Made by a program: the position numbers and the translations under genes. Of a stretch of 26,012 nt of DNA, positions 1,052 through 25,640 are shown piece by piece; positions within the stretch are counted from its first letter, which is position 1; each line of letters opens with the position of its first letter. Under the pieces are notes generated by a model. That model was given only the letters and a program-made list of their open reading frames with translations. It did no database searches and was not told the DNA's origin. The DNA comes from a virus: positions 1 through 26,012 of IMG/VR virus record IMGVR_UViG_3300045944_000160; one strand, written 5' to 3'.

Positions 1052-1320
1052 TGGCGGGCCCCACGAACGGTAGCGTGCTCTGCGGCTGCGGCCGGCTGAT
1101 GTACCCGAAGACGAACTCGGTCACCGTCGAAGAGCTGCTCGAGGACGGCCGGCCCTACAAGCTCTGGTCGGCCGACCTCTGGGCCTGCGTCGAGTGCGGC
1201 GTCGAAGTGATCACCGGCTTCGCGCGCGTCCCCCTGGCCGAGCACTATCAGCCCGAGTACCAGACCATCCGCGACCGCCGCACGCCGGTCTATCCGGCCC
1301 GCTGCCGGGAGGACGCGTGA
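1051..1320 (+). CDS. small cysteine-rich (zinc-ribbon-like) protein, 89 aa
   Basis: I do not recognise the family. The protein has CGCG near residue 11 and CVEC near residue 50, a spacing that could bind one zinc ion as a treble-clef or zinc-ribbon fold. The longer open frame starts at 1021, but the ATG at 1051 overlaps the stop of the HTH_17 gene in the TGATG manner used throughout this region, so I prefer it. Its own stop overlaps the ATG of the next cysteine-rich gene at 1320. Confidence 0.6.
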   Translation: MAGPTNGSVLCGCGRLMYPKTNSVTVEELLEDGRPYKLWSADLWACVECGVEVITGFARVPLAEHYQPEYQTIRDRRTPVYPARCREDA

Positions 1321-1550
1321 TGGCCTGCTGCGCCCTGCCAGGCGGCTGCGGGCGGCCCGACTGCTATCTGTGCGTCGTGATGCCGCAGAAGTTTCCGCAG
1401 CCCGTGCATCACACCGAAGCGGCGGCCGTGAAGAACGCGACGCGCGACGGGGCCCCGACGCTGGCGGCGGCGCGGACCCGCGGGCACCTCGCCTTTCGGA
1501 AGCGGCCGCGCGCGGGGGCGTTCTGGGTGCCGCGGGAGGCGCGGCGATGA
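1320..1550 (+). CDS. small cysteine-rich protein, 76 aa
   Basis: The N-terminus MACCALPGGCGRPDCYLC contains five cysteines and could bind zinc. The remainder is basic and Ala/Arg-rich, with no motif I can name. The start at 1320 overlaps the preceding stop (TGATG), and its stop overlaps the ATG of the methyltransferase (ATGA at 1547), which supports a real translated link in the operon. The open frame reaches further upstream to 1194, but that part lies inside the preceding gene. Confidence 0.55.
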   Translation: MACCALPGGCGRPDCYLCVVMPQKFPQPVHHTEAAAVKNATRDGAPTLAAARTRGHLAFRKRPRAGAFWVPREARR

Positions 1551-2686
1551 CGACTCGATCGGAGACGCCTGATACCGTGCACGGCCGGCTGCTCGAGTCG
1601 GTCCACGTGTCCGGGTACACGTTCGAGCGGGCGTGCAGCGAACTGGAATGGTTGCTCGACAAAGACCGCTGGAAGCGTGTGGGTGGCGGGTACGAGGACA
1701 TCAACGCCTTCATGGCGAGCATCGAGGCGTCGTTTTCCGAGTTTCGACCTGTCGCCGAAAAGCGCCGGAAGATCGCGAAGCGGCTGGCTGAATTGAACGC
1801 CTCGCAGCGACAGACGGCGCGGCTATTAGGTGCAAACGAAACTACCATCCGCCGCGACTTAGGAAAGCGTGCGGCAAAAGCCGCAGAGCCCCCCGCAGAC
1901 GTCGAAAAATCGGCCGGAATCGTGATGGCCCCGAGCGGCGCTGCGGCACATGCCGCAGCCATGCGAGAGGCGAACCGGGAGTCGGCACGCGACCAGCGCG
2001 AGGCCGATCGTGACGCTCGCCGATCCGCGAGTGTGCGCGCGGCTGCCGCCGCGACCATTGACGCTGGCGACTTCCACGTTAAACACGGACCCTTTCTCGA
2101 GGTCGCTCGTGAGGTCGCGGACGGTTCGCTGCGGCTGATTTTCACGGACCCCCCGTACCACGACAAGACGATCGGGCTATATCGCGACCTCGGGCGCGTC
2201 GCCGCGCGCGTGCTTCGGGACGGTGGCAGCTTGATCACGTACACGTCACATCACCGCCTGCCCGATGTGATCGCGCTCGTCCAGGCGGCCGGGCTCGCGT
2301 TCTTCTGGCCGCTCGCGATGGTGCATACCGGGCAGAAGGCGCGCATGACGGAATACGGCATCGTCGTGAACTGGAAGCCGCTGCTCTGGTTTGTGAAGGG
2401 CACGTTTCGGGACCGCACCGAGATGGCATTCCTCGACGACCTGGTGATGTCCGAACGTCAGAAGTCTGAGCACGACTGGCAGCAGAGCACGGTTGAGGCG
2501 GAGTACTACATTCAACAACTCACTCATCCGGGCGATCTCGTCTTCGATCCGTTCTGCGGTGGTGGTACGACGGCCGTCGCCGCTCAGCGGACGAGTCGTC
2601 GGTGGCTGACCTGTGATGTCGACGAATCGTGCGTCCTGTTGGCCAGGCGACGCGTGATGGAGGCGATCAATGGTTCGTCCCGATGA
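1547..2686 (+). CDS. DNA methyltransferase (N4-cytosine or N6-adenine type) with N-terminal HTH, 379 aa
   Basis: This S-adenosylmethionine-dependent amino-methyltransferase has catalytic motif IV as DPPY at residues 201-204. The cofactor-binding motif I is FDPFCGGGTT at about 333-342. DPPY before the FxGxG motif is the beta-class order found in many phage and restriction methylases. Residues 84-104 (NASQRQTARLLGANETTIRRD) look like a ParB/Noc-like HTH, a combination common in phage methylases. Residues 110-170 are charged linker. The start at 1547 is chosen by the ATGA overlap with the preceding gene. A longer frame reaches back to 1370. It overlaps the next gene, a PD-(D/E)XK-like protein, by 17 bp. 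It may protect phage DNA, regulate genes, or be half of a restriction-modification pair. The target site cannot be read from sequence. Confidence 0.88.
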   Translation: MTTRSETPDTVHGRLLESVHVSGYTFERACSELEWLLDKDRWKRVGGGYEDINAFMASIEASFSEFRPVAEKRRKIAKRLAELNASQRQTARLLGANETTIRRDLGKRAAKAAEPPADVEKSAGIVMAPSGAAAHAAAMREANRESARDQREADRDARRSASVRAAAAATIDAGDFHVKHGPFLEVAREVADGSLRLIFTDPPYHDKTIGLYRDLGRVAARVLRDGGSLITYTSHHRLPDVIALVQAAGLAFFWPLAMVHTGQKARMTEYGIVVNWKPLLWFVKGTFRDRTEMAFLDDLVMSERQKSEHDWQQSTVEAEYYIQQLTHPGDLVFDPFCGGGTTAVAAQRTSRRWLTCDVDESCVLLARRRVMEAINGSSR

Positions 2687-9923: not shown

Positions 9924-11455
9924 GCAAGACGGAAAGCGCCGCCTCGCGCGCGGTGCGGCTGATCAACAACCTGACGCACACCGGCGACTATGCCGGGCGG
10001 CCGTTCACGCTGCGCCCGTGGCAGGAGCGGCGGATCGTGCGCCCGCTGTTCTCGACCGGCCCGGACGGCCTGCGCCGCTACCGGACCTGCCTGTTGATGC
10101 TGCCGCGCAAGAACGGGAAGACCGAGCTGGCGGCGGCGATCGCGATCTACTCGCTCCTGTTCGACGGGCAGACCGGCGGCGAGATCTACCTGGCCGCGGC
10201 CGACCGGGAACAGGCGGGGAAGGTGTTCGGGGCGATCGTGGCGATGCTGCGCGCCGACCCCGAGCTCGAGGCCGAGGTCGAGATCATCGAATCGCAGAAG
10301 CGGGTCGTGCATCGGCGCTCGGGGTCGTTTGCGAAAGCGATCAGCGCTGAGGCCTACAGCAAACACGGGTTCAATGCGTCGACGATCATCTACGACGAGC
10401 TGCACGCCGCCCCGAATCGCGAGCTCTGGGACGTGCTCGCGACCTCGCAGGGCGCGCGGCTGCAGCCGCTCTTGATTGCGATCTCGACGGCGGGCTATGA
10501 CCGCCACTCGATCCTCTACGAGCTCTACGCGCACGCCAAGCGCGTCGAGGCCGACCCGACGATCGACCCGACGTTTCTGCCGGTGATCTTCGAGGCGGCG
10601 GTCGACGCCGACTGGAAAAACGAACAGGTGTGGAAAGCCGCGAACCCCGCGCTCGGGGATTTCCGGTCGCTTGAGGACATGCGGATCCTGGCGAAGCGCG
10701 CCCAGGAGATTCCCGCGCAGGAGAACACGTTCAGAAGGTTGTACTTGAACCAATGGACCGAACAGGCCGCGCGCTGGATCACGCTCGACGCCTGGGACGC
10801 GTGCCGCGTCGACGCGACGCCCGACTATCACCGGCCGTGTTTTGTCGGGCTCGACCTGTCGACGACGACGGATCTCACGGCGCTGGTCGGCGTCTATCCC
10901 GGCGGCGACGGGTTCGACGTGCGCGCGTGTGCGTTCATGCCCGAGGCGCGGATCCGGGAACGCTCAGCCCGCGAGCGCGTGCCCTACGACGAGTGGGTGC
11001 GCCGCGGCTACCTCGTCGCGACGCCGGGCACGGTCGTCGACTACGAGCGCGTGCGGGCGCAGCTGCACGCCTGGGACGCCGACGGGTCGATCCGCGAGGT
11101 CGCGTACGACCCCTGGAACGCGACGGATCTCGTGACGCGGCTGCAGGAGCAGGACGGTTTGACTTGCGTGCCGATCCGGCAGGGGTTCGCGAACCTGAGC
11201 GCGCCGACCAAGTCGCTCGAGAAGGCGATTCTCGCGCGCACGCTCCGGCACGACGGCCATCCCGTGCTGCGCTACTGTGTCGGGAACGTGGCGATCGAGC
11301 AGGACGCCGCCGGCAACGTCAAGCCGTCCAAGAAACTCTCGACCGAGCGGATCGACCTGGTCACGGCGCTCGTGAATGCGATCGATCGGTTCGATCGGCG
11401 CTCGACCGCGCCGGCGCCGAGTTATGCGATTTACGTCTTTGGAGGCGCGTCATGA
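9908..11455 (+). CDS. terL: terminase large subunit, 515 aa
   Basis: This is the ATP-driven packaging motor and genome-cutting nuclease. Walker A is LPRKNGKT (65-72), Walker B is TIIYDELH (159-166) with D163 and E164, and the coupling motif is ISTAG (192-196). In the RNase H-like nuclease half, acidic metal ligands are visible at D316 (VGLDLSTTTD), D401 (AYDPWNA) and D483 (ERIDLVTAL). Length and motifs fit the Terminase_1 (YmfN-like) family of HK97-type phages. The start is a GTG at 9908 or 9917, and GAGGAG lies further upstream before a hairpin. The stop overlaps the next ATG (ATGA). Confidence 0.95.
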   Translation: MPCVARKTESAASRAVRLINNLTHTGDYAGRPFTLRPWQERRIVRPLFSTGPDGLRRYRTCLLMLPRKNGKTELAAAIAIYSLLFDGQTGGEIYLAAADREQAGKVFGAIVAMLRADPELEAEVEIIESQKRVVHRRSGSFAKAISAEAYSKHGFNASTIIYDELHAAPNRELWDVLATSQGARLQPLLIAISTAGYDRHSILYELYAHAKRVEADPTIDPTFLPVIFEAAVDADWKNEQVWKAANPALGDFRSLEDMRILAKRAQEIPAQENTFRRLYLNQWTEQAARWITLDAWDACRVDATPDYHRPCFVGLDLSTTTDLTALVGVYPGGDGFDVRACAFMPEARIRERSARERVPYDEWVRRGYLVATPGTVVDYERVRAQLHAWDADGSIREVAYDPWNATDLVTRLQEQDGLTCVPIRQGFANLSAPTKSLEKAILARTLRHDGHPVLRYCVGNVAIEQDAAGNVKPSKKLSTERIDLVTALVNAIDRFDRRSTAPAPSYAIYVFGGAS

Positions 11456-23032: not shown

Positions 23033-23050
23033 CGGGAACAATACGGGAAT
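23033..23050 (+). promoter_or_regulatory. candidate integrase arm-type site, left pair (CGGGAAC-N4-CGGGAAT)
   Basis: Two CGGGAAY heptamers start at 23033 and 23044, 11 bp apart (one helical turn), in the noncoding stretch about 105 bp left of the attP core. An identical arrangement occurs at 23873. The stretch 23014-23154 otherwise holds only a GGCAAAA repeat (23058 and 23068) and no gene I can support. Confidence 0.45.
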
Positions 23051-23154: not shown

Positions 23155-23199
23155 TGGTGGACGGCAGGAGGCTCGAACTCCCGACCTCCGCGTTGCGAA
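23155..23199 (-). other. attP: attP core: 3' half of a tRNA gene, probably tRNA-Ala(CGC)
   Basis: Read on the minus strand, the segment begins in an anticodon loop TTCGCAA (anticodon CGC). It runs through half-stem CGCGG, variable loop AGGTC, a T arm GGGAG-TTCGAGC-CTCCT, acceptor half GCCGTCC, A73 and CCA. The anticodon and the U at position 70 (partner of the G3:U70 alanine mark), with A73, point to tRNA-Ala. The 5' half of a tRNA is absent: the sequence beyond 23200 does not continue the stem. This is the classic form of a tyrosine-integrase attP core that restores the host tRNA on integration. It sits between the late operon and the integrase operon. Confidence 0.8.
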
Positions 23200-23230
23200 G
23201 GTGGAGGTGCGCGTTATTCTGGCGTGGAAA

Positions 23231-23761
23231 TCAGGCGATTTTCAGCTCTTGGCGCGAACAGATCGGGAATGGATTCACCAAATCCGACACAACATCCTGA
23301 CCGGCTTTGACGCGTTCAATGAGCGCCAGCAGGTCGGGGGTCGCCTGGAACCATTCGCCGTTCACACGGCTCGTGCGGAACCGCCGATGTAGCAATCCTT
23401 CAATGGAGCGGTGCGCGAGCAAGGTCGCGAGCAACGTGAGCGGTTGCTGATGGCTCACCTGCAGGGCGCGTAACCGCGCGACGACATCAACGGCTCGACC
23501 GATTTTGATCGCCGCACCGTCGCTCACGAAATAGACGTAACACCAGCCGCCGGTGTCTTGGCGTGGCTGCTTGAGCCGGCGCGGGGCAAAATGCTGCGTC
23601 TCGGCGAGCTGCGCCATCCGCTCTCGGTAGATGCGTTCTGCCAGCGGTCGATTCTCCGGCGTCGCGAGCACGGCGGTCCGTTCTCGGATCGCTTTCCGTT
23701 TGCCGTGACCCTCAAGGCACAAGTAAAAGTATTTGGAGTCTGGGCGTTGAAAGACAGCCAT
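23231..23761 (-). CDS. T5orf172/Mug113-type GIY-YIG protein with an integrase-like N-terminal domain, 176 aa
   Basis: Residues 74-150 form a GIY-YIG-like domain: CYVYFVS (74-80), AIKIGRA (84-90), Arg96 in VVARLRALQ, Glu121 in SIEGLLHRRF and GEWF (135-138). This is the T5orf172 pattern with the expected catalytic Arg and Glu. Residues 1-54 closely resemble the start of this phage's integrase: both read MxxFxRPDSxYxxLxLE and both continue to YxxRMxxLA, about ten identities in the first 17 positions. In integrases that region binds arm-type DNA sites. The gene ends 31 bp from the attP core. No good ribosome site precedes the ATG at 23761. A nuclease or DNA-binding role at att or arm sites is an inference. 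The codons look less GC-rich than those of the late genes. Confidence 0.78.
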   Translation of the reverse strand: MAVFQRPDSKYFYLCLEGHGKRKAIRERTAVLATPENRPLAERIYRERMAQLAETQHFAPRRLKQPRQDTGGWCYVYFVSDGAAIKIGRAVDVVARLRALQVSHQQPLTLLATLLAHRSIEGLLHRRFRTSRVNGEWFQATPDLLALIERVKAGQDVVSDLVNPFPICSRQELKIA

Positions 23762-23799
23762 ATTGTTGTTCAGGATCGCACGGATAAGTGGCTAGACGT

Positions 23800-23815
23800 G
23801 TTGATTGGAATCAAC
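23800..23815. promoter_or_regulatory. perfect palindrome upstream of the GIY-YIG gene
   Basis: GTTGATTGGAATCAAC has seven-base arms around GG, 39 bp before the GIY-YIG start codon. It lies in the only gap (23762-23896) of the leftward operon, so the GIY-YIG gene may have its own regulated promoter here. An operator or integrase-related binding site are both possible. Confidence 0.4.
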
Positions 23816-23872
23816 CCATAGGCACCGCTAAGGCCGGTTTTTACTGGGGTTTTCGGCGTTTCGTGGGGCGAT

Positions 23873-23890
23873 CGGGAACGGGGCGGGAAT
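23873..23890 (+). promoter_or_regulatory. candidate integrase arm-type site, right pair (CGGGAAC-N4-CGGGAAT)
   Basis: CGGGAAC at 23873 and CGGGAAT at 23884 repeat the spacing and order of the left pair at 23033; only the four spacer bases differ (GGGG against AATA). A single CGGGAAT also lies at 23264 in the end of the GIY-YIG gene. The pair is about 675 bp right of the attP core, far for a classical arm site. Confidence 0.4.
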
Positions 23891-24307: not shown

Positions 24308-24564
24308 CGATCCTCCGTGGGGTCATCGCCGCGGCGCAGCACGTCGAGTACGGCCGGGCAGTCGCCAAAGTACTCGCGGACGCCCGCGAGAAACCGCTCG
24401 GCGGCCAGCCGATTCGGACCTTGCAGGCCAGGGTGCCGCAGGGCGAGTTGCACGACGCCCGCGAGCTGCAGCGCCGACTGAGGTTGCAGCGTCAGCGCCA
24501 TGAAGTCGGGCTTTTGCTGAATCTCACGCGCCATCGCGAGCACGAGCTGTTCGTCAGGAATCAC
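24304..24564 (-). CDS. unknown small protein, 86 aa, GTG start overlapping integrase stop
   Basis: The GTG at 24564 overlaps the integrase TGA as GTGA and is preceded by GGAGGA, which strongly supports the start. The longer open frame to 24807 is shadow of the integrase. The sequence (VIPDEQLVLAMAREIQQKPD, LQPQSALQLAGVVQLALRHP, with FLAGVREYFGDCPAVLDVLR) resembles short proteins often found in phage early or lysogeny modules. No function is known to me. Confidence 0.65.
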   Translation of the reverse strand: MIPDEQLVLAMAREIQQKPDFMALTLQPQSALQLAGVVQLALRHPGLQGPNRLAAERFLAGVREYFGDCPAVLDVLRRGDDPTEDR

Positions 24565-25640
24565 GCGCGTTTCCTCCGTGCCTTGCGGGCCGGCTGCCCG
24601 GCGAGCGCGGCGAGCATATCCTCGCGGCTGACCTCGCTGTAAATCTCCAGCAGCACGTTCGGCTTCTTCCAGTTGCCCTGCTGCTGCACGATCGGGAGCG
24701 GGTGCTTGTCCTTGACCAGCAGGTCGGTCGCGCCGCTGCGCCGGGTGCCCCAGTGAAACGTGACGCCGTGCTTCGCGCGGCCGTAGGGGATGTCGGCCTG
24801 GCGACACAGATACTCGAGGCGCTGCCGGACCGAGCCCGTCCAGTCGCGCGGGTCGGCCGCCTTCCGGAACTTCGGGAACAAGTACGGGCTCTCGCGGCCG
24901 AGCGCGTCGACCGCCTTGACGGCGCGGTCGGTGAGCACCAGCTCGTAGGGGACGCCGCCTTTCGGATCGCGGACGTGGAGCAGGCGGCCGTCGCGATCCG
25001 TGTGCTGCAGGTCGAGCAGGTCGCCGAGCCGCGCCAGGCCGTCGCGCCCCAGCACGAGGATCGCCGTGTCCTGCGGATCCTCGCAGACCGCGAGCAGCTG
25101 ATCGAACTCGGCCGCGCTGACGTAGCGGCGCCGCGGCGGCACGACGCGCAGCCGCGGCATCCCGACGAGCGGCGAGGCCTGCAGGTACTTGGGCACCGCG
25201 TCGCGCAGCATCCCCTTGAGCAGATCGACCTCGCGATTGATGGTCACGGCCGCGACCGGCGACGTCGCCGTGCGCCGGGCCGTGTGATACGCCTTGACGC
25301 GGTCGCGGTCGATCGCCGTCAGCAGGTCGTCGCCGAAAAACGCGGTCAGCGCCTTCAGCAGTTCCAGCTCGCGCCGGGCGCCGGCCCGGTGCGCGATCGT
25401 ATCGGTCGCGTAGGGCGCGGCGTACGTCGCGAAGCGGATCGCCGGCGTCGCGGTCGGCAGCCGATACAGCCGCGCCGCGAGTTCGTTCATGCGCTGATGA
25501 TAGCGATCGAGCGCGATCCGCCGGCTGTCCTTCCGCTGGGCGACTGTCTCACCGACCTTGATGTCGGTCTTTTCCTTCTGCTTGGTGGTCTCGAGGAACA
25601 GCCACCAGTACGGCGAGTCGGGGCGGGTGAAGAGGCCCAT
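24561..25640 (-). CDS. int: tyrosine integrase, 359 aa
   Basis: This is a site-specific recombinase of the tyrosine family. Catalytic residues are R204 (GLARLGDLLDL), K227 (DPKGG), the HxxxR segment TFHWGTRRSGATDLL (H296, R300 or R301), W324 (QGNWKKPN, the usual His/Trp position) and the nucleophile Y334 (LLEIYSEV). Residues 1-55 are the presumed arm-binding domain and 70-165 the core-binding domain. The HWGTR form has one more residue than the common HxxR box. The ATG at 25640 overlaps the 63-aa gene stop (TAATG). It probably recombines the attP core at 23155-23199 with a host tRNA-Ala gene, 1.4 kb away. Between them lie three genes, whereas int usually lies next to attP. Confidence 0.93.
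   Translation of the reverse strand: MGLFTRPDSPYWWLFLETTKQKEKTDIKVGETVAQRKDSRRIALDRYHQRMNELAARLYRLPTATPAIRFATYAAPYATDTIAHRAGARRELELLKALTAFFGDDLLTAIDRDRVKAYHTARRTATSPVAAVTINREVDLLKGMLRDAVPKYLQASPLVGMPRLRVVPPRRRYVSAAEFDQLLAVCEDPQDTAILVLGRDGLARLGDLLDLQHTDRDGRLLHVRDPKGGVPYELVLTDRAVKAVDALGRESPYLFPKFRKAADPRDWTGSVRQRLEYLCRQADIPYGRAKHGVTFHWGTRRSGATDLLVKDKHPLPIVQQQGNWKKPNVLLEIYSEVSREDMLAALAGQPARKARRKRA

Follow-up and report, generated by a model that had tools for sequence, protein, structure and literature searches.

Odn (origin-directed nuclease, Gp88) of Vibrio phage ICP1 has an N-terminus that resembles the RepA_N of a satellite and cuts the satellite origin, where iterons are needed (PMC8263062), and the same RepA_N-T5orf172 plan recurs in phages Inny, Muut, and Mt1B1_P17 (PMC8263062, PMC10448857). 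We looked at a gene of comparable plan from a soil phage, in the viral record IMGVR_UViG_3300045944_000160, of which positions 1 to 26,012 form the window, that is, the whole stretch of DNA analysed (26,012 nucleotides). This gene (23231..23761, minus strand) encodes a protein of 176 residues, hereafter the GIY protein, in which an integrase-type N-terminal domain (N-domain) is followed by a GIY-YIG (MUG113/T5orf172) domain, and it lies in the phage attachment site (attP) near a tyrosine integrase gene. Like Odn, the GIY protein combines a C-terminal T5orf172-type GIY-YIG domain with an N-terminal DNA-binding domain homologous to a DNA-transaction protein of a mobile element, and the cognate sites of the relatives of that domain are short repeats, iterons in the case of Odn and arm-type sites here. 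It differs from Odn in that its aiming domain is of the integrase arm-binding type and not RepA_N, that its expected target is attP and not an origin, that its carrier seems to be a temperate phage holding the gene inside its own attP, and that it is known here from sequence alone. No RepA_N domain was detected by Pfam search of the GIY protein. Because its N-terminus is of the integrase type where Odn has RepA_N, we consider the GIY protein to be Odn-like in plan but not an Odn.

Other described enzymes share part of this layout. The GIY protein resembles the free-standing phage GIY-YIG/T5orf172 homing endonucleases in its nuclease family, in its presence or absence among close relatives, and in its insertion into a conserved functional site whose function is apparently kept. 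It differs from them in that its target would be attP, that an integrase-like domain takes the place of a Zn-finger (CapR, DUF723), and that homing is only predicted here. AP2 and integrase N-domains have a common fold, and HNH homing endonucleases with AP2 domains likewise join a nuclease to a small beta-sheet DNA-binding domain, although they belong to another nuclease class and are not directly connected with the att arms of the phage itself. As for attP as a point of attack in mobile-element conflict, a parallel is Adi of ICP1, which reportedly (Nguyen et al. 2022) turns the satellite recombinase into an attP-cutting nuclease, Adi itself being no nuclease and working via a serine recombinase. 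In the open-licence literature, we found neither a fusion of GIY-YIG with an integrase arm domain nor a GIY-YIG protein associated with arm-type sites, and our searches of the phage, plasmid, and genome collections returned no such fusion. The original prediction, which knew of no described system pairing an integrase with such a fusion, has to be qualified in view of Odn, a close precedent in principle (PMC8263062).

The N-terminus of the GIY protein was compared with that of the integrase encoded in the window. About ten identities within the first 17 residues, followed by a YxxRMxxLA helix, had been announced; exactly ten were counted (M, F, R, P, D, S, Y, L, L, E), and the Y..RM..LA helix comes next in both proteins. 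Over residues 1-60, the gapped BLOSUM62 score was 71, against a maximum of 49 among 3,000 shuffled N-termini, and when the GIY protein was used as a query against the window, the integrase N-terminus was matched unprompted (E=2.6e-4). A profile of 40 integrase N-domains, built without GIY sequences, detected the GIY N-terminus with E=1.3e-12, the best unrelated open reading frame (ORF) out of 13,787 reaching 0.65. Chance similarity of the two N-termini was therefore ruled out by both the shuffles and the integrase-only profile. AlphaFold2 predicted the same strand-strand-strand-helix order for the GIY protein (E3-5, E11-16, E25-32, H35-58; pLDDT about 91-98 for residues 1-50) and for the integrase (E3-5, E11-16, E21-28, H33-59). 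Profile and predicted secondary structure agree that the two N-termini share a fold, as had been proposed, and residues 1 to ~60 of the GIY protein (23582..23761, minus strand) are homologous to the N-terminal, arm-binding domain of integrases. The N-domain profile gave chance-level matches only against the sequences of solved structures. By analogy with lambda integrase, and considering the conserved arm repeats described below, this domain is predicted to bind arm-type sites.

The original prediction had also called this domain a copy of the N-terminal domain of the integrase. It is indeed an integrase-type domain, but it appears to come from a neighbouring branch: identity is about 42-53% to the integrases of three relatives (L025, L026, and L028; relatives are given here by their L numbers) versus 33-36% to the integrase next door, and the tree also puts it nearer that other branch, with weak support. 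Since those three integrases are closer, the sequences indicate a relative of the neighbouring N-domain and not a copy of it. A recent duplication of the 5' end of the neighbouring integrase gene was rejected on the same comparison, the tree being weak.

The presence of a T5orf172 GIY-YIG domain in the same protein was borne out. The C-terminal half scores above both curated Pfam cut-offs, with 43.1 bits against 22.3 for PF13455 (MUG113, 6.7e-11) and 31.6 bits against 20 for PF10544 (T5orf172, 2.5e-7), which places the nuclease domain at about residues 75-145 (23327..23539, minus strand). Residues R96, E121, H125, and GEWF 135-138 of this domain are invariant across six aligned relatives, R96 and E121 being the predicted catalytic Arg and Glu by analogy (PMC8263062). 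Between the window and L004, the GIY genes show 36 synonymous and 20 non-synonymous codon differences, divided into 4 and 0 in the N-part and 32 and 20 in the C-part. As synonymous differences outnumber non-synonymous ones, the gene is under purifying selection.

We then turn to the anatomy of attP. On the minus strand, the order is integrase, a gap of about 0.8 kb, the GIY gene, and attP. The att core (23155..23199, minus strand) corresponds to the 3' half of a tRNA gene, read by eye as tRNA-Ala with a CGC anticodon; ARAGORN found no whole tRNA in the window, as expected for a half gene. The tRNA 3'-half core TTCGCAACGCGGAGG...CCGTCCACCA follows the integrase gene in nearly all relatives, and in most of them it is surrounded by two arm-type repeats ATTCCCnnnnnGTTCCC in the same orientation, at about -70 and +150. 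This repeat is present three times at attP in the window, all on the minus strand, against an expectation of 0.11 matches over its entire length (at most one mismatch). The sites are located at +150 (23034..23050), at -70 (23254..23270, within the GIY ORF at its 3' end, with one half-site altered to TTCGCG), and at -690 (23874..23890). A fourth match, with one mismatch, occurs at 10206, away from attP. When 2.9 million viral contigs were scanned with the two-arm DNA pattern, 12 contigs were retrieved and 12/12 carried this integrase type. The half-sites vary by integrase branch (TTCCCG, TTCACG, GCACG), with a conserved period of about 11 bp between them, and because this period fits arm-binding sites, we infer that the repeats flanking the core have that role. 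The tRNA half and the arm-type repeats on either side of it support the attP assignment well. The GIY gene, said to be beside attP, is in fact inside it, between two arm-type repeats.

Several attP regions showed features of their own. The arm letters vary across those of L005-L029, L042, L066, and L069, which makes them a ready set for learning arm specificity. L066, L067, and L069 have the tRNA core in common and different flanking repeats, and L068 (6380-6840) has four arm-type sites beside one integrase, two of them in reverse orientation. In L014, L016, L050, and L052, the tRNA core is on the opposite strand from the integrase gene, unlike in the other relatives.

Comparison with L005, L007, L009, L010, and L022 delimited an inserted cassette of about 620 bp (23200..23819, minus strand), with the outer arm segment on one side and the att core on the other. 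The -690 arm of the window and the next ~60 bp match the left arm of these cassette-less relatives as far as GCGGTGCCT, after which the relatives go straight into the core (TCGCAACG) whereas the window goes into the GIY cassette. The -70 arm closes the cassette, and the core comes next. The alignment indicates that the outer arm was displaced by ~620 bp and replaced by a cassette-borne arm at the normal -70 spacing. The window, L003, and L004 all have three arms (-690, -70, and +150), and in each of the two carriers one half-site of the cassette-borne arm is altered, though not the same one. The cassette thus separates the outer arm from the core yet carries a third arm at the same distance, which bears on how the own site would be protected. 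Entry of the cassette via integrase recombination at a secondary site was considered but lacks support, there being no recognisable core at the left junction. A perfect inverted repeat, GTTGATTCCAATCAAC, is present at 23800-23815, between the left junction of the cassette and the GIY start, and is kept in L003 and L004.

L003 and L004 share the cassette with the window, whereas it is missing from L005-L010 and L022, the integrases of which are 80-89% identical to that of the window. In the collections searched, L003 and L004 were the only homologues of the GIY protein, and each of them is located within attP with a matching integrase next to it; homologues at a distance from att sites, which would have spoken against the original prediction, were not encountered, two being too few for a strong test. 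The cassette DNA had no match in 50,697 phage records. In the integrase DNA tree, L004 groups with the cassette-less L005 and L007 and not with the window, with weak support (87.8/69). Between the window and L004, synonymous differences amount to 4 in 65 codons in the GIY N-part, 32 in 111 in the C-part (p=0.0002), and 76 in 359 in the integrase (p=0.003). Because they are fewer in the N-part than in the C-part and in the integrase, the GIY N-part was probably exchanged between phages more recently than the flanking genes. These patterns would fit a cassette that moves between phages, loss in some lineages being the alternative.

The insertion could also have a more ordinary origin. The GIY gene may be a passenger with an assorted DNA-binding domain, trapped in attP by imprecise prophage excision and acting elsewhere or on general foreign DNA. 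GIY-YIG/MUG113 proteins with unrelated N-termini are common in phages and plasmids, the attP-adjacent regions of this group hold varied cargo between integrase and core, and excision via a neighbouring att site would enclose DNA between two arm copies. We nevertheless find this explanation improbable, since an integrase-type aiming domain located among arm sites is a hard coincidence for a random passenger.

With the shared domain, the nuclease family, the insertion, the third arm, the presence/absence pattern, and the purifying selection in hand, we propose that the GIY protein is a chimeric site-directed nuclease that would home into cassette-less attP sites or exclude rivals, a proposal to which we give about an even chance of being right. 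The integrase-type N-domain would dock on the arm-type repeats of attP and the GIY-YIG domain would cut or nick DNA nearby. Precedents are established for T5orf172 nucleases directed by a borrowed DNA-binding domain (PMC8263062, PMC10448857). A mobile cassette would have entered the attP of this lineage at the core edge and, by supplying an arm site itself, would have preserved the near spacing of arm and core (-70). In a cell with a related cassette-less phage, the attP of the latter would be cut, and either the cassette would be copied in by repair (homing) or the phage would be disabled (rival exclusion); the data fit both alike. More tentatively, with a probability we put a little short of even, the protein may be a selfish or weaponised attP-directed enzyme, itself residing within attP, that took over an integrase arm-binding domain and thereby finds and cuts the att sites of related phages in competition for one and the same tRNA. 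It would then be one of several kinds of integrase-domain proteins kept beside attP to contest integration sites.

Several observations weigh against a nuclease aimed at attP. Arms remain intact in the attP of the phage itself, so cutting of its own site would have to be avoided somehow. The N-domain resembles integrases with partly different arms (GCACG half-sites in L026 and L028), and because the arms of these kin integrases differ in part, its target may not be the local arms. A RERT motif points to the local arm type through a weak correlation with TCCCG/TCACG half-sites; binding to the arms of rivals only was dropped as a firm claim, since this motif also fits the local type. Moreover, the collections searched yielded no more than two homologues, confidence is low for the nuclease half of the AlphaFold2 model, and stand-alone N-domain proteins without nuclease stand at neighbouring sites, so that DNA binding alone may matter. 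The fold search of solved structures with the GIY model gave no meaningful match, the nuclease half being poorly modelled.

The location within attP, with three arm sites on offer, would also suit a protein that takes part in integration, excision, or genome processing by nicking or cutting its own attP or the excised circle. We hold this to be very improbable, because tyrosine integrases can do without an additional nuclease and the integrase/attP modules of close relatives that lack the gene are complete. Cutting of host attB is the least likely of the roles originally proposed, since attB is not expected to carry arm sites.

Proteins with an integrase-type N-domain were found at other attP sites of the group. 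Stand-alone N-domain proteins of 66-87 residues are encoded on the plus strand in L019 (9295-9513), L020 (9342-9605), and L042 (6816-7073) and start just downstream of the +150 arm. L081 encodes a protein of 193 residues (1180-1761, minus strand), right beside attP, that joins the N-domain to another C-terminus, for which no Pfam match was found and in which a winged-helix-like part and a region with a cysteine pair were seen by eye. Its N-domain is sister to that of its own integrase (97/81). Since the tree requires at least two origins for the non-integrase N-domain proteins, phages of this group appear to have repeatedly placed integrase-type readers beside attP. The stand-alone proteins are possibly directionality factors or repressors.

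These proteins bring in the main rival of the site-directed nuclease, namely that the GIY protein is a regulator of recombination or expression (a directionality factor or a repressor). Its N-domain would compete with the integrase at the arms or repress promoters, and the GIY-YIG domain would be idle, a nickase helper, or vestigial. The three nuclease-less proteins, and that of L081, do start just past an attP arm site, and I-TevI, a GIY-YIG nuclease, doubles as a repressor (PMC10448857). On the other hand, the GIY-YIG domain keeps its conserved residues under purifying selection and so is probably not idle, and most relatives lack the gene, which is hence not an essential integration factor. 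We regard a regulator as unlikely, while taking it as the explanation to be weighed most seriously.

By eye, no integrase-type N-domain was seen in the GIY proteins of Mycobacterium phage Nigel and Mycolicibacterium phage phi1_186018. That of Nigel is an unannotated GIY-YIG ORF between gp6 and a RuvC-like gene (L030, 3103-3438, plus strand), while that of phi1_186018 (L080, 1866-3397) is annotated as a DnaD-like helicase loader, and its neighbouring 'integrase' reads unlike an integrase.

The integrase of the window (24561..25640, minus strand) is a tyrosine integrase with an N-terminal arm domain. It is detected by PHROG 1 (E=1.9e-28) and is missed by Pfam alone, being diverged. Its catalytic residues R204, H296, R300, W324, and Y334 are invariant in 32/32 aligned members, and the best solved match of its model is full-length lambda integrase (Z 20.4). 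A tblastn search of the 50,697 phage records gave no match for it, and scans of bacterial genome contigs with the N-domain and with the integrase found no relatives. In L003 (5385-6632), the integrase frame is broken, its N-terminal part being read in a different frame, whereas L004, which is nearly identical, has an intact one.

Temperate phages that share a tRNA gene compete for one attachment site, and if the GIY protein reads arms and cuts there, attP itself would be a battleground. The design of Odn, in which a rival's DNA reader is joined to a GIY-YIG blade, would then have arisen in another context. Natural alleles with and without the cassette make this idea directly testable on short DNA fragments. 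Finally, the recurring stand-alone integrase N-domains at attP hint at a wider, unnamed class of attP-linked proteins.
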